Shown here one piece after another: positions 13,997 to 19,681 of a stretch of DNA of 32,756 nucleotides. The notes under the pieces are model-generated. The model was not told the origin of the DNA, did no database searches, and was given only the letters and a program-made list of their open reading frames with translations. The position numbers and the translations under genes are program-made. Source of the stretch: Rhodococcus maanshanensis NBRC 100610 (GTDB lineage Bacteria; Actinomycetota; Actinomycetes; Mycobacteriales; Mycobacteriaceae); NCBI RefSeq assembly GCF_001894865.1, contig NZ_BCXA01000062.1, positions 1-32,756 on the forward strand, written 5' to 3'. The stretch's first letter is position 1. The number at the start of each line of letters is the position of its first letter.

Positions 13997-14671
13997 ATGG
14001 CAGAATCGACGATTGTGAGTACCGCCCCAGCAGCACGACCATTGCGCGCCGACGCCGAACGCAACCGACGCAAGATCCTCGACGCCGCGATGGAGCTGTT
14101 CGCGAGCCGCGGCATCGACATCACCCTCGACGACGTCGCCCGGCACGCCAAGGTCGGCGTCGGTACCGTCTATCGGCGCTTCACCTGCAAGCAGGAGCTG
14201 GTCGACGGCGTCTTCGAGCAGAGCATGGACCAGATCGCCGAGGCGGCCGAGGAGGCGCTGCGGCGCGAGGATCCCTGGGCTGCGCTTGTCGACTTCATCG
14301 GGCTCACCAGCGAGTGGATGTCGCTGAGCAGGGGTCTCGGCGATGTCTTCTTCACCAACGACGAGGGCCGTGAGCAGGTCGCGTGCGCTCGGCAGCGGAT
14401 CACGCCCGCGATTCAGCAGCTCGTCGACCGGGCGAAGGATGCGGGCGCGCTGCGCCCCGAGATCCAGGTCAACGACCTGTTCGCGGTCAGCTGCATGCTC
14501 GACGCGGTCATCGACTTCAACCGGCCGGTCTCTCCCGAGACCTGGCGCCGCTATCTCGCGCTCGTGCTCGACGGGATGCGCGCCGACGGGGCCGAGCGGG
14601 CGCCGCTGCCGCTGGCGCCGCTCACCGACGAGCAGGTGGAGGCGGCCAAGACCGCCCGCGCCCGCGGCTGA
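13997..14671 (+). CDS. TetR-family repressor of the adjacent exporter
   Basis: A 224-residue protein. The N-terminal helix-turn-helix reads I-L-D-A-A-M-E-L-F-A-S-R-G-I-D-I-T-L-D-D-V-A-R-H-A-K-V-G-V-G-T-V-Y-R-R-F (residues about 26-62), standard for TetR. The rest is a helical ligand-binding domain including a conserved C-terminal TetR_C-like half. A short run of about 15 disordered residues precedes the DNA-binding part, so the GTG at 14015 is an alternative start. Neither start has a good ribosome site, so a leaderless mRNA is possible. Divergence from the DHA2 exporter, with two shared palindromes, points to local drug-responsive control. Confidence 0.9.
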   Translation: MAESTIVSTAPAARPLRADAERNRRKILDAAMELFASRGIDITLDDVARHAKVGVGTVYRRFTCKQELVDGVFEQSMDQIAEAAEEALRREDPWAALVDFIGLTSEWMSLSRGLGDVFFTNDEGREQVACARQRITPAIQQLVDRAKDAGALRPEIQVNDLFAVSCMLDAVIDFNRPVSPETWRRYLALVLDGMRADGAERAPLPLAPLTDEQVEAAKTARARG

Positions 14672-14754
14672 TTTTGCCATCGCATTACTCTTCGTTTACC
14701 GTGGCTGAGGCGCGGGGACGAGCCCGCGCCCTCGACGTGCGGGAGGTGGTAGGC

Positions 14755-14814
14755 GTGCCTGGTCCGAGACCCGTGGCGCACACGTCACCGATCCCGCTCG
14801 ACGCCCTGCAGTAA
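14755..14814 (+). CDS. Candidate proline-rich leader peptide
   Basis: GTG at 14755, eight bases after GGGAGG, opens a 19-codon frame ending in TAA at 14812-14814: M-P-G-P-R-P-V-A-H-T-S-P-I-P-L-D-A-L-Q. Five of 19 residues are Pro, with Pro at every second position at the start. The stop codon lies inside the left arm (14811-14817) of a 7-bp stem, so a ribosome that finishes the peptide would hold that stem open, whereas one stalled on the Pro codons would not. This is the arrangement of leader peptides such as mgtL of enterobacterial Mg2+ transport operons, but no sequence homology is claimed. Confidence 0.4.
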   Translation: MPGPRPVAHTSPIPLDALQ

Positions 14815-14894
14815 CGCGCCGGTGCCGCATGACGGCACCGCCGGATGCCCTGCGGCGTTACGAACCGGGTGCGAGGCCCGTCCTGCGGACCCAT

Positions 14895-14939
14895 GTGCCT
14901 CGCCGATCGGTTACGCGGCGCTCGCGCACTCTTTTCTCT
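14895..14939 (+). terminator. Candidate attenuator-terminator in the leader
   Basis: CGCCG (14901-14905) pairs with CGGCG (14916-14920), and GTGC (14895-14898) with GCAC (14926-14929) across an internal loop. The stem is followed at once by TCTTTTCTCT. A T-rich run of this kind is uncommon in the surrounding GC-rich DNA. It lies about 200 bases before the first mini-CorA gene. Confidence 0.4.
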
Positions 14940-15142
14940 AGACCACGCTCTCAACACAGCCATGCGGTCGTGCCTGGGCTTTTGCTCACCCTCGACCGCC
15001 GGGCCGTGCGGCCTCGACGCGTGCCGTACCGCCCGACCTCCAGCGAAAACGTTCCCATCGAGGCATGCACCGGGGGTGCCCGTGCGCCGGCCCGCCGCGC
15101 ACCGCGTAGCCCTTCGGGATGCCGCGAAAAGAAGGACTCTTT

Positions 15143-15502
15143 ATGAGCAGCACGATGCCGACCAATGACTACGCGCAGTCGACCGCCGACCCGATGGCGC
15201 CGAGCGCCGAGAACGTGGGGTTGCTGCGTGACGTCACCGCTGAGCTGCGCGGACTCAACAGAGAGATGGAAGAGATCTGCGAGATCACCCAGGACCAGCT
15301 GAAGGTCACCGAGCAGACCCGCCGGGTGACAGCGTGGACGGCGGTCGCAGTGGTACCCGGTGCCCTCGGGTCGCTGTACGGCTCGAACTTCGAGCACATG
15401 CCCGAGCTCCAGTTCTACTACGGCTGGCCGATCTTCCTCTGCGTTCTTGCCTCCAGCGCGCTGGCCACCTACCTCGGGATGCGCCGCAAGGGCTGGCTGT
15501 GA
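15143..15502 (+). CDS. Miniature CorA-like membrane protein 1
   Basis: A 119-residue protein that matches only the C-terminal end of CorA Mg2+ channels. A helix (about residues 28-58) corresponds to the end of the CorA stalk helix. It is followed by TM1 ending in L-Y-G80-S81-N82-F-E-H-M-P-E-L, the outer loop, and TM2 ending in M-R-R-K-G-W-L. The canonical pore motif Gly-Met-Asn is here Gly-Ser-Asn, while the loop M-P-E-L is kept. Full CorA has about 320 residues; the large cytoplasmic Mg2+-sensing funnel is absent and not encoded upstream. The ATG at 15143 has an AAGGA site. A paralogue follows 41 bases later. It may form a small pentameric channel, modulate a full-length CorA, or be non-transporting. 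Confidence 0.7.
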   Translation: MSSTMPTNDYAQSTADPMAPSAENVGLLRDVTAELRGLNREMEEICEITQDQLKVTEQTRRVTAWTAVAVVPGALGSLYGSNFEHMPELQFYYGWPIFLCVLASSALATYLGMRRKGWL

Positions 15503-15543
15503 GCCGGCAGGTGAGCAGAGAAAGCACAGAAGGGAGGAAGCGC

Positions 15544-15912
15544 ATGACGAATCAGCACATCCCCGCCAGTCTGCGCGGGCTGAGCACCCGCGACCTGGAA
15601 CAGTGCACGACCGAGGAACTGCGGGCCTTTCTCACTGGTGTCTGTGAGTACCGGGCGGGGCTCGCACAGCTGCACCGCAAATCGGTGGACCTGGTCAAGG
15701 AGACCAGGCGCCAGCGGGTGGTCTCCGGGTGGCTCGCGGTGGGCATCGTGCCCATCGCGCTCGGCGGGATCTACGCCTCGAACTTCAGCGACTACGGCGG
15801 CATGCCGGAAACCAAGTTGCTGTATGGATGGCCCCTCTTCGTCGGGGCACTGGCGACCCTCTGCGGCACCCTGTACCTCGTGATGCGGCGCAGGGGCTGG
15901 ATGGAGGCCTGA
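15544..15912 (+). CDS. Miniature CorA-like membrane protein 2
   Basis: A 122-residue paralogue of the preceding gene, with a strong GGGAGGAAG ribosome site. It has an N-terminal helical part, the stalk-like K-S-V-D-L-V-K-E-T-R-R-Q-R, TM1, then I-Y-A78-S79-N80-F-S-D-Y-G-G-M-P-E-T, and TM2 ending M-R-R-R-G-W-M. The Gly-Met-Asn position is Ala-Ser-Asn and the loop is three residues longer than in its partner. Both copies share Y-G-W-P at the start of TM2. Cotranscription with copy 1 and a strong terminator right after suggest a two-gene unit. I infer a hetero-oligomer; transport has not been shown for any such protein known to me. Confidence 0.68.
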   Translation: MTNQHIPASLRGLSTRDLEQCTTEELRAFLTGVCEYRAGLAQLHRKSVDLVKETRRQRVVSGWLAVGIVPIALGGIYASNFSDYGGMPETKLLYGWPLFVGALATLCGTLYLVMRRRGWMEA

Positions 15913-15940
15913 GGTTCCTCAGGCGCACAGAACTTCCCGA

Positions 15941-15982
15941 AAAGGGGCCTCGGGCGCGAATTTTCGCGCCCGAGGCTCCTTT
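15941..15982 (+). terminator. Strong terminator after the mini-CorA pair
   Basis: Arms 15941-15959 and 15964-15982 form a 19-bp stem with one G-U pair and a four-base loop (ATTT). The right arm runs out in CTCCTTT. This closes the transcript 28 bases after the second mini-CorA gene. Confidence 0.85.
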
Positions 15983-16155
15983 CGTGTTCCGGGTGACGGC
16001 CCCGACCCGCAGGTTTGGGCCGCCTCGCGATGCTGAGCCGATATTCATCCCACCAATTTTCGGTAGGCAGCGGCGGACATCGCCCCTACAGTCTCTGGCG
16101 CTGACCCGGCGCCAACGCTCGGTCGTACCGGCAACGCTCAATCCGAAAGGTCCCC

Positions 16156-18108
16156 ATGCGTAGTACCCGCGCCCGCCGTGCCGCGATGATCGGCACCGCG
16201 GCACTGCTTCTGGTCGCGCCGTGCGTGGCCCTCGCCCAGGCCGAGCCCGCCGCGCCGGCACCCGGGTTGCCCGCGGAGTTGGTGGCCGCGGTCCAGCGCG
16301 ATCTCGGACTCAGTCCCGCCCAGTACCTGGAGCAGGCAGAGGCCGGGCAGGAGCTGCTGAGGTTCGCCGAGACGCTGCGCGGCAAGTTCCCCACGGCCTT
16401 CGCCGGCGTCTGGCTCGATGCGGCCGGCGCGCCGTTGGTCGGCCTGGCCGACGGCCCGGACACGGCCGCCGCTCGCACCGCCGTGGAGGCCGCCGGCTAT
16501 CAGGTCAAGGACCAGCCGCGCAGCGAGCAGGTCCTGTCCGGCCTGCTCGGCCAGCTCAACGGCTGGGTTCAGCAGCTCCCCGCGCCGTTGTCCGGCCTGG
16601 TCAACGGCGCCGCGATCGACCCCGTCGCCAACGACATCGCGTTGGAGGTCAAGGACACCGCCGGGGGTCAGGGTCTGCAACTGCCCGACTTCCTCAACTT
16701 TGTGCGTGTGGCGAAAGTACCCGGAGGCTCGTCCGAGCTGCCGGGGTTCGGCTCGCTCGGCTCGTCCGGCCCGGCGACCACTACAGCACCGACCAAGCCC
16801 ACTGAACCGACCACCACCAAGCCGACCGAACCCACTACCACCAAGCCGACCGAACCCACTACCACCAAGCCGACCGAACCGAGCAAGATCACCCTCGACC
16901 CCATCACTGCGGCACCCGACAGCAATGAGTACACGCTGAAGGCGAAGGTCACTCCCGCAGCAGCGGGCGGCACCGTCGAATTCAAGGACGGCAACGACAT
17001 CCTCGGCACCACAAAGGTCGAGGCGGACGGCACCGCCGTCAGGATGTGGTACCCCGAAGCCGACGGCAATCACACCATCACCGCTATCTTCTCCGGACGC
17101 GACGGCGTCGCCGGATCCACCACCACCGCGCAGGTCACCGTCACAACGGTCGGCAACAATGCCACCACCTCGACCACCACCCTCGATCCGATCAAGGGAG
17201 CCGCCGTCGGCAAGGAGATCACGCTGAAGGCAAAGGTCACCCCCGCAGAAGCGGGCGGCACCGTCGCATTCGACGTAACCGAGCCCAATAGAAACATGAC
17301 TAACGAAGCACCGGTCGGCGCCGACGGCACCGCCACCCTGAAGTGGACCCCCGAGAACGCCGGCAAGGCGACCGTCGAGGCCACCTTCTCCGGCCGCGAC
17401 GGCGTCACCGGATCCACCACCACCGTGCAGGTCACCGTCGCAGAGGCCCCCAAACCCACCACTACCAAGCCCACCACGACCACGCCCAAGCCGCCGGCCC
17501 CCGACGCCATCATGGGTGGCCAGGGCTACCGGTCCGGCGAGACCGCCAGCGATCCCTGCTCGTTCGGTTTCAACGGCACCGACGGTGCTGGCAACGCGGT
17601 AAACATCACCGCCGGACACTGTGACTTCAGCCGCGGAGGCTCCCCGCGGGTGTTCGTGGGGGGAAGCTACGTCGGCGCCTTCGAGAAGGTAGCCTTCGAG
17701 GGCTTTGACTATGGGTTGATCAGGATCGACGCCCGCAACCGCTTCGAGAACAACTTTGTTTCCACCTACGGCGGGGCCCCGGTGCGGATCACCGGCACCG
17801 CAGATCCCGTGGTCGGGGCGCCGGTGTGCAAGTCCGGCGAAATCACCGGCTTCACCTGCGGCAAGATCACCGCCGTCGACGTGTCCATGAATTCCGGTCC
17901 CCGAGGCGCCAGGGTGCCCAATGCCTTTGCCGCGAAGGTATGTTCGATCCCCGGTGACAGCGGTGGAGCCATCGTGACCGGCACCAAGGCGCTGGGCATC
18001 ACGGCCGCCGGCAGCGGATGGGATTGCGACCCCTCCAAGCAGACGTACGCGCAGCCGATCAACTCGGTCCTCGCGGACAACCCCGGCCTGAAGGTCCGCA
18101 CCAACTAG
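16156..18108 (+). CDS. Secreted S1-family serine protease with two Ig-like repeats
   Basis: A 650-residue protein. A Sec signal ends near A-L-A-Q-A (about residue 29). Next comes a region resembling the prodomain of alpha-lytic-type proteases (about 35-190), a Thr/Pro linker with K-P-T-E-P-T-T-T repeats (about 212-242), and two Ig-like (Big_3-type) repeats of about 90 residues, each ending F-S-G-R-D-G-V-x-G-S-T-T-T-x-Q-V-T-V. After a second Thr/Pro linker comes a chymotrypsin-fold domain with the triad H488 (T-A-G-H-C), D518 (F-D-Y-G-L-I) and S602 (G-D-S-G-G), and Cys pairs. It likely self-processes outside the cell; the Ig units may bind wall or substrate. GAAAGG precedes the ATG. A terminator follows. 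Confidence 0.88.
   Translation: MRSTRARRAAMIGTAALLLVAPCVALAQAEPAAPAPGLPAELVAAVQRDLGLSPAQYLEQAEAGQELLRFAETLRGKFPTAFAGVWLDAAGAPLVGLADGPDTAAARTAVEAAGYQVKDQPRSEQVLSGLLGQLNGWVQQLPAPLSGLVNGAAIDPVANDIALEVKDTAGGQGLQLPDFLNFVRVAKVPGGSSELPGFGSLGSSGPATTTAPTKPTEPTTTKPTEPTTTKPTEPTTTKPTEPSKITLDPITAAPDSNEYTLKAKVTPAAAGGTVEFKDGNDILGTTKVEADGTAVRMWYPEADGNHTITAIFSGRDGVAGSTTTAQVTVTTVGNNATTSTTTLDPIKGAAVGKEITLKAKVTPAEAGGTVAFDVTEPNRNMTNEAPVGADGTATLKWTPENAGKATVEATFSGRDGVTGSTTTVQVTVAEAPKPTTTKPTTTTPKPPAPDAIMGGQGYRSGETASDPCSFGFNGTDGAGNAVNITAGHCDFSRGGSPRVFVGGSYVGAFEKVAFEGFDYGLIRIDARNRFENNFVSTYGGAPVRITGTADPVVGAPVCKSGEITGFTCGKITAVDVSMNSGPRGARVPNAFAAKVCSIPGDSGGAIVTGTKALGITAAGSGWDCDPSKQTYAQPINSVLADNPGLKVRTN
16787..16884 (+). 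repeat. 24-bp tandem repeat coding Thr/Pro linker
   Basis: A 24-base unit recurs at 16813-16836, 16837-16860 and, truncated, 16861-16880, coding T-T-K-P-T-E-P-T. It is in frame inside the protease gene, so copy-number change would alter linker length without a frameshift. Confidence 0.8.
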
Positions 18109-18163: not shown

Positions 18164-18275
18164 ACGATTGGACGCCGGTCTGCTCGGCCACCGGAGCGGC
18201 GAGGGCCCATCCTGCGGTCGCGGCGACCAGAGACAGCGCGACCGCGTCGAGGGCGGCGATCCATCTCCTGCTCAT
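18162..18275 (-). CDS. Small single-span membrane protein (37 residues)
   Basis: Its ATG overlaps the stop of the large membrane protein gene by four bases (ATGA), and the frame closes with TGA at 18162-18164. The 37-residue product starts M-S-R-R-W, has one hydrophobic stretch (about residues 7-28, Ala/Leu/Val with a Trp), and ends in a short polar tail. Positive residues before the helix predict an outside C-terminus, or possibly a signal peptide. Coupling to the 469-residue membrane protein suggests a small accessory subunit. No family recognised. Confidence 0.5.
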   Translation of the reverse strand: MSRRWIAALDAVALSLVAATAGWALAAPVAEQTGVQS

Positions 18276-19681
18276 GCTGCGTCCGGCTCTGCGGCGGCAG
18301 GTGGCCGGACCAGCGCCCGGACGCCGACCGCGCAGGCCAGCACCGCGATCAGCAGGGCGATGCCCGCGACCCGGTCGTCGTAGGCCGGGATGTCAAAGAC
18401 GTCGACAAAGCTGCCGCCCGTGAACGTCGGCTCGCGCCTCATCCCCAGCATGGCATCGAACGGCTCGTTCATGGGATCGCCAGTGAGGGGCACATATGCG
18501 CCGTCATACGAACCGCCGTACGCGACCGTGCCGGTGTAGACCGTTGCCGCCGAGTGAAAGACCATGGACACGAACGGGATCCCCAGCCCGACCGCGGCGA
18601 TGGCCGCAGTGCCGGGCAGCGACGACCCGAACGCCATACCCGCGCCGACGCCGAGCACGGCCAGTCGCACCAGCAGCATCGGGCCGTCCTGGCCGAGATT
18701 CGGCCAGATCGCGCCGACCATCGGGATCAGGGCCACCACGAACAGGCCGCCGATCGTCGACCGCCAGACCATCGACAGGCGCAGGCCCAGCGCGACCGCG
18801 ATCGCGCCCACCAGCACCGCCTGCCAGTGCTCTACGCCGGCGAACGGCCCACCGAGATCCACCAGCACCGGCATCGAGGCCGCCGCGACGCCCGTCGCGG
18901 CCAACAGGAAGCGGCCGTCGGCGACCTCGATCGTCCGCGCGGCGAACCAGGTGAGCGCGACGACGACCGCCATGGATAGCCCGATGACGATCCAGGAGCT
19001 GACCCGCGACGTGTAGTCCTGCCGGTCGATCCAGAACAGCAGCGTCCGGTTCGCCAGCGCGATCGATGCCGCGGTCGCGAGCGCGAGGCGGAGCTCACGT
19101 CCGGTGGCCCGCTGGATCCGTACCGAGCCGTCCGCGATCACGGCGGCCGCAAGGGCCAGTACGAGAGTCGGGCCGAGCAGCCACCAGGAGGGTTCACCGA
19201 TCGAGGACGTGGCCTGCGCCGGGAACACCTGCTCGAAGGCGCGGGCGGTGAGGAACGTGCCGAGCACTCCGAGGGTCAGCGCGAGCTGGCCGGCCCGCCG
19301 TCCCCACACCGCCGCCACCGCCGCGCCGAGGATCACACCCGCTGCCACCGTCTTGGCGTAGTGCAGGGCGATCAGCTCGTCGATGCCCCAGATTCCGGGG
19401 ACCGCCAGGCGCGCTCCGACCAGTACGAGCGCCGCGACGGCCATCGCGATCCAGGCGATCCGCCGGGATCCGTTGCGCTGCAGCAGGGCGTAGGCGAGCA
19501 CCGCGACGACGGTGCCCACCGCGATCCCGGTCGGCTGACTGGAGAGCCAGCGGCTCAGCTCCCGATCGGACGTGTAGATCGCCCAGCCGCCGCCAGGGGG
19601 ATTGGTCAGCACGAACGCGGCGAGCGCCCCGCCGAACAGGGCGGAAAGCGCCGAGAGGACTTCGCGGGGTTCGACGGGCAT
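18272..19681 (-). CDS. Polytopic membrane protein of unknown function
   Basis: A 469-residue protein with about 13-14 hydrophobic segments. I recognise no family. Polar sites that stand out are W-G-I-D-E-L-I-A-L-H-Y near residue 98, F-W-I-D-R-Q-D-Y-T-S-R near 214, and a long extracellular-looking stretch near residues 380-440 rich in Tyr, Gly, Asp and Phe (G-G-S-Y-D-G-A-Y-V, then D-V-F-D-I-P-A-Y-D-D-R) before the last helix. The start is ATG at 19681, divergent from the ICL/PEPM gene about 100 bases away. A 37-residue membrane protein is coupled at its end. Transport or cell-envelope roles are possible but unsupported. Confidence 0.7.
   Translation of the reverse strand: MPVEPREVLSALSALFGGALAAFVLTNPPGGGWAIYTSDRELSRWLSSQPTGIAVGTVVAVLAYALLQRNGSRRIAWIAMAVAALVLVGARLAVPGIWGIDELIALHYAKTVAAGVILGAAVAAVWGRRAGQLALTLGVLGTFLTARAFEQVFPAQATSSIGEPSWWLLGPTLVLALAAAVIADGSVRIQRATGRELRLALATAASIALANRTLLFWIDRQDYTSRVSSWIVIGLSMAVVVALTWFAARTIEVADGRFLLAATGVAAASMPVLVDLGGPFAGVEHWQAVLVGAIAVALGLRLSMVWRSTIGGLFVVALIPMVGAIWPNLGQDGPMLLVRLAVLGVGAGMAFGSSLPGTAAIAAVGLGIPFVSMVFHSAATVYTGTVAYGGSYDGAYVPLTGDPMNEPFDAMLGMRREPTFTGGSFVDVFDIPAYDDRVAGIALLIAVLACAVGVRALVRPPAAAEPDAA

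Follow-up and report, generated by a model that had tools for sequence, protein, structure and literature searches.

Tandem genes for small CorA-related membrane proteins with a hydrophobic stalk and no cytoplasmic domain in Rhodococcus

Introduction

The CorA Mg2+/Co2+ channels (PF01544, TIGR00383) belong to the 2-TM-GxN, or MIT, family, in which passages of PMC6972854 also count ZntB. Changes in the GMN signature are said, in passages of PMC9909464, to abolish transport or to alter selectivity, and the Gly and Asn of the motif are described as ion-coordinating in parts of PMC3629940 and PMC11919701. Gating of CorA is discussed, in sections of PMC8865849, largely in terms of movements of the large cytoplasmic domain. 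The CorA transmembrane module has been put to another use in the CRISPR-associated CorA effectors, which, in the portion of PMC10600005 that describes them, carry a large N-terminal domain of another kind and accompany type III CRISPR genes, unlike the proteins considered here.

The yeast proteins Mrs2 and Lpe10 are, like the pair described below, two related subunits, and one of them modulates the other. Both are of full size, with N-terminal domains, and they are not known to be encoded in a tandem operon. The isolated transmembrane domain of Mycobacterium tuberculosis CorA is reportedly a laboratory construct in which the module was studied without the full cytoplasmic part, and 4eeb is a coiled-coil CorA mutant, reportedly with an engineered coiled-coil stalk. 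GMN is reportedly kept in both of these constructs, and both are engineered, unlike the natural genes reported here. No description of a natural CorA pair made of transmembrane parts alone was found in searches of the open-access literature.

Here we describe two adjacent genes, mini1 and mini2, in a stretch of 32,756 nucleotides of Rhodococcus maanshanensis NBRC 100610 (contig NZ_BCXA01000062.1), hereafter the window. Their products share with CorA the end of helix 7 running into TM1, the loop with Asn and M-P-E, TM2 and the basic-GW end. They differ from it in having no cytoplasmic domain, in carrying GSN, ASN or AAN in place of GMN, in the disappearance of the T305 polar ring, in the hydrophobic interior of the stalk and in being encoded by two genes in tandem. 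As read from the sequence, they are a natural, apparently selected and very narrowly distributed CorA variant, which consists of the pore module only, with a non-GMN signature and a rebuilt stalk.

Results

Gene layout and locus

The two genes occupy the frames in which the original prediction had placed them, and each has the ribosome site that it claimed, rich in purines (Table 1). They are separated by 41 nt and followed by one hairpin 3′ of the second gene, an arrangement with which a single transcript would fit. This hairpin was not among the output of a T-run terminator scan. Upstream of mini1 there is a further in-frame ATG (15119), from which translation probably does not begin: at that place the R. 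oryzae sequence is interrupted by a stop and is out of frame.

Table 1. Features at and around the mini1-mini2 locus (positions in the window)
Feature	Position	Strand	Description
TetR-family regulator	13997..14671	+	Locus context, outside the unit; in 6/6 genomes, with or without the mini genes
Region upstream of the pair	14672..15142	+	81% identity to R. oryzae (489 columns); possible promoter or leader
Ribosome-binding-site-like motif before mini1	15130..15135	+	AGAAGG, 7 nt to ATG; read in the sequence
mini1	15143..15502	+	119 aa; low-confidence N-terminal tail 1-20; predicted stalk helix into TM1 21-82; GSN 80-82; MPE 86-88; TM2 95-116; C-terminal end RRKGWL
Ribosome-binding-site-like motif before mini2	15532..15537	+	GGGAGG, 6 nt to ATG; read in the sequence
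mini2	15544..15912	+	122 aa; predicted stalk helix into TM1 15-82; ASN 78-80; loop YGGMPE; TM2 96-116; C-terminal end RRRGWMEA
Strong GC hairpin after mini2	15944..15979	+	16-pair stem, 4-nt loop; possible terminator of the two-gene unit
Large protein gene	16156..18108		Apparently secreted; bacterial Ig-like repeats
Hydrophobic protein gene	18272..19681		469 aa

Rhodococcus oryzae NEAU-CX67 carries the pair in the same order at the same locus, with 91% identity for mini1 and 75-76% for mini2. The locus itself, defined by MFS, TetR and permease genes, was found in all six genomes of the genus, and the pair together with some 470 bp upstream in two of them (the window genome and R. oryzae); at this locus the other four showed no match to the pair or to its upstream region. 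On the earlier question of whether the pair is conserved together in Nocardia/Rhodococcus, it is thus kept together in a second species and in two of the six genomes of the genus. The upstream region is conserved with R. oryzae though indels disrupt its reading frames; it is perhaps a regulated leader or promoter. A consensus scan of the region returned no sigma-70-like promoter. An upstream riboswitch or other known RNA was rejected as a candidate, as no Rfam family reached its gathering score in the whole window and only sub-threshold matches were seen in 14600-16200.

The large protein gene downstream has the pair on one side and the permease-like gene on the other. Its product has, by eye, a trypsin-like C-terminal part (GDSGG), and no match to it was present in the R. 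oryzae stretch compared. The hydrophobic protein had no Pfam match at 1e-5, and related copies stand downstream of TetR in other genomes of the genus.

Kinship with the C-terminal part of CorA

Both proteins align with CorA in its C-terminal part only, as the original prediction held. With PF01544, mini1 scored 33.6 bits (E 3.4e-8; profile positions 230-288 of 292), above the 27-bit cut-off, and mini2 14.1 bits (E 0.029; positions 238-292 of 292), below it. TIGR00383 gave E values of 2.6e-13 and 1.8e-5 for mini1 and mini2, respectively; both alignments reach the end of the profile (320/320), that of mini1 takes in the stalk helix as well (residues 32-119), and both scores are far under the cut-off of that model for full-length proteins. 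In a search of solved structures mini1 matched CorAs at E 1.5e-6 and mini2 at E 0.63-0.81. The PADLOC CorA model matched mini1 at E 0.035 and mini2 was not among its matches, so that neither qualifies as a defence CorA.

The GMN signature is absent: mini1 has GSN, and mini2 has ASN, or AAN in R. oryzae. The wider GxN signature is found in mini1 and not in mini2. The M-P-E loop is kept in both species, as MPEL in mini1 and MPET in mini2, and the earlier reading of altered signatures beside a retained loop was therefore correct. The RRKGWL terminus that had been ascribed to both proteins belongs to mini1; mini2 ends differently, and its R. oryzae orthologue ends in RSKGWMKV. The N-terminal cytoplasmic domain with the Mg2+ sensing sites, already said to be missing, is absent from both proteins.

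For comparison we used 110 CorA relatives, collected with the pattern [YWF]G[M/S/V]N followed by MPE; they represent 110 of 111 loci, one (L003, with GQN) having been dropped, and include repeats (87 distinct stalk stretches) as well as a fragment, L071. The presence of GMN in 110/110 of them is partly by construction, because of the collecting pattern. Equivalent residues were assigned by counting from the conserved Asn (T. maritima 314) towards the N-terminus, with the pore residues taken from the parts of PMC3629940 that name them. At the N288 equivalent both minis have Thr, versus Asn in 101 of the 110 relatives; at the T305 equivalent mini1 has Gly and mini2 has Ile, versus Thr or Ser in 106. 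The G312 equivalent is Ala in mini2, and that of M313 is Ser (mini1) or Ala (mini2). The Asn314 equivalent and a basic residue at 292 are retained in both proteins and both species. The dropped locus, L003, is the third CorA of the host genome (G000:C21:117436-118335); like the minis it is non-GMN with the Asn retained. Unlike them it is full-length, and mini2 additionally lacks the Gly.

Search for relics and signs of constraint

The DNA around the pair was compared with the open frames of the 110 relatives. Of the 220 matches in the window, 219 start at least 39% of the way along the query (medians 64-83% at the two genes), the exception being a single isolated match near 14.0 kb that starts at 4%. 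The 219 matches in R. oryzae start, without exception, at 38% of the query or beyond. As a control, a decayed full-length CorA of a sister species (G002:C7; L038, match 131078-131263) gave matches from the protein start onward. Apart from the isolated match, the claim that no remnant of a CorA N-terminus lies upstream is thus upheld by a test that does reveal relics where they exist. The G002:C7 pseudogene has its pieces in different frames, with GMN and MPE still there.

The constraint tests rest on one species pair, the window genome and R. oryzae. By NG86, dN and dS were 0.041 and 0.236 for mini1 (dN/dS 0.18), 0.132 and 0.209 for mini2 (about 0.63) and 0.031 and 0.223 for the neighbouring TetR gene (0.14). 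The 28 substitutions in mini1 include 11 replacements against a neutral expectation of 20.2, a count as low being reached in 0/5000 simulations. In mini2, 30 of 50 substitutions are replacements, against 33.4 expected (P 0.15); these are much more conservative than random ones (0/5000 simulations), and residues 43-120 show 15 replacements against 21.3 expected (P 0.023). From the replacement counts relative to simulation, and from their conservativeness, mini1 is clearly under firm constraint and mini2, on weaker evidence, appears to be under a looser one.

Predicted structure

AlphaFold2 monomer models had a mean pLDDT of 72 for mini1 and 77 for mini2 (pTM 0.39 and 0.45). The predicted layout is one long helix (21-82 in mini1, 15-82 in mini2), a short loop helix and TM2; in both models there are two C-terminal transmembrane helices, with TM1 continuous with the long stalk helix. 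The top PDB matches by Foldseek were CorA chains, although weak (best E 0.04 and 0.48). Hydropathy peaks exceeded the cut of 1.4 for both helices of mini2 and for TM2 alone in mini1.

A hydrophobic zipper in the stalk

When the pore-lining heptad register is prolonged into the stalk (positions 260, 263, 267, 270, 274, 277, 281 and 284), mini1 reads L-V-L-L-M-I-T-Q, with a mean hydropathy of 2.2, and mini2 L-F-V-Y-L-L-S-L, with a mean of 2.5; the same register averages -1.5 in the 110 relatives (range -3.0 to -0.2). Among the seven possible phases it ranks first in hydropathy in mini1 and in mini2, but in none of the 110 relatives. The zipper occupies an identical, ungapped register in the two stalks. 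This register was spotted in the sequences first and tested afterwards; shuffling within each protein gave P values of 0.0015-0.0057, uncorrected for seven registers, and the comparison with the relatives is independent of them. Judged by eye over a 30-residue stalk stretch, mini2 has six replacements relative to R. oryzae, none on the eight register positions, and mini1 also has six, one of them on the register (Val to Ile). Aligned in register, mini1 and mini2 share 4 of 34 residues in the stalk and 14 of 27 in TM1.

The hydrophobic zipper stalk is a new observation, drawn from the residue pattern and overlooked in the original prediction. Since the heptads in phase with the pore are hydrophobic, in contrast to those of the 110 relatives, a description of the minis as CorA minus its domain would be too simple. 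They look as though they had a coiled-coil-like core in place of the hydrated axial vestibule of CorA.

Distribution and origin

The wider searches each covered a drawn sample, with the best matches listed. In the family sample (401 genomes), 372 genomes matched mini1 at E 1e-3 and three matched mini2 at 1e-13; mini2 matched 10 of 348 genomes of the order sample at 1e-12 and one of 396 of the phylum sample at 1e-14, and mini1 matched 50 of 394 of the class sample at 1e-16. R. oryzae was absent from the matches of the class (mini1) and phylum (mini2) samples. Among the matches listed, no mini gene occurred beyond the window genome and R. oryzae, and the remaining frames were at least 326 aa long, save three truncated by contig ends. 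A frame of 111 aa in one genome (G856) and two of 103 aa in another (G277) were rejected as minis, being cut by contig ends. A scan of genome contigs, which required one of two short peptide patterns, confirmed 54 loci: that of R. oryzae, 52 GMN CorAs of at least 298 aa, and a 162-aa GMN frame, which is the fragment L071 of Methylocucumis oryzae and carries WGMN. As these were samples with the best matches listed, a distant or independently arisen gene for a CorA C-terminus may exist elsewhere.

A viral or plasmid origin was considered and rejected. Scans of viral contigs with mini1 and with a four-sequence alignment confirmed no relative. mini1 matched 731 plasmid records (best E 2e-9) and six phage records (best E 1e-5), in the manner of generic CorA C-termini (for plasmids, among the best 20 of 731); the best plasmid match was an unannotated 338-aa open frame with GMN. 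A PHROGs search gave nothing convincing.

A tree was built from 109 C-terminal stretches, four of them from minis and 105 from relatives, over 116 columns, with midpoint rooting and with SH-aLRT as its only branch support. In it the four mini proteins formed one clade on a long stem, with a support of 98. They grouped with neither of the two host-genome CorAs included, the third (L003) being left out. A single clade is to be expected if one truncation preceded a tandem duplication; because of the long branches, such an origin is only tentative.

Discussion

Taking the gene layout, kinship, constraint, synteny and zipper pattern shown above together with the predicted helix layout, we favour, at an even balance between right and wrong, a self-assembling and probably mixed oligomer of mini1 and mini2, built of CorA-derived pore modules without a sensor. 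An ancestral CorA fragment, comprising the end of helix 7 and the TM1-loop-TM2 hairpin, would have lost the cytoplasmic Mg2+-sensing domain and undergone tandem duplication, its stalk being remade into a zipper of hydrophobic heptad positions that keeps the phase of the pore-lining face. The two proteins would be produced together and, held by the zipper and TM1, build an oligomer that stands by itself, in which a fixed plug may take the place of the sensor-controlled vestibule of CorA. Self-assembly is favoured because hydrophobic side chains turned towards the water-filled funnel of full-length CorA would presumably be unfavourable, and for the same reason, the zipper, mixing with full-length CorA is unlikely. 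The shared register and the operon-like layout make a mixed oligomer plausible.

Conduction by such an oligomer is doubtful, because the T305 ring is replaced by Gly and Ile, mini2 has Ala for Gly, and the zipper would leave no open exit along the axis. Both the Gly and the Asn of GMN are present in mini1, and the Asn alone in mini2; this, along with the published reports on GMN, makes assembly likelier than Mg2+ conduction. Speculatively, if there is any flux, divalent ions might leak past the Asn ring and the acidic ring of M-P-E independently of a sensor and escape laterally by way of the polar stretch just below the membrane (mini1 T49, Q52, T56, T59 and T63), with a selectivity other than that of GMN channels. 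The fullest form of the proposal, a natural two-subunit, sensor-less CorA whose mixed ring with a coiled-coil stalk passes a cation other than Mg2+ through a sideways exit, appears unlikely.

The loss of the polar pore-lining residues and of the Met of GMN (in mini2 of the Gly too), the hydrophobic zipper in the expected ion path and the very long branches in the tree would also suit repurposed membrane proteins that transport nothing, the hairpin serving only as anchor and oligomer core and the zipper stalk binding or organising something else. We consider this somewhat improbable, since both proteins, in both species, have kept the counterpart of Asn314, the M-P-E motif and a basic residue at 292, which is beyond the needs of an anchor.

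The minis might otherwise enter full-length CorA pentamers as accessory or dominant-negative subunits and tune Mg2+ uptake, as Lpe10 is reported to do for Mrs2. The genome has three full-length PF01544 genes besides the minis, the TM1 and loop of the minis resemble those of full-length CorA, and the family has a known example of a partner that modulates another member, in yeast (title of a paper cited in PMC9276622). However, the zipper residues would point into the polar vestibule of full-length partners and the tree places the minis with neither host CorA included, so that a role of this kind seems decidedly unlikely. Finally, decaying CorA fragments still open by chance, which the many mini2 replacements, the narrow distribution and the presence of a genuine CorA pseudogene in the genus (G002:C7) might suggest, are very improbable, as the original prediction had argued, given that there is no N-terminal relic, that each gene has its own ribosome site and signs of constraint, and that both are intact in two species and have the zipper.

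A natural CorA reduced to a pore and a rebuilt stalk would offer a direct test of whether the transmembrane module can assemble and conduct alone, and of the parts played by the Gly and Met of GMN. Should it be true that both genes form one mixed ring, as the self-assembling oligomer proposed here would have it, the CorA family would have in them a minimal heteromeric member.
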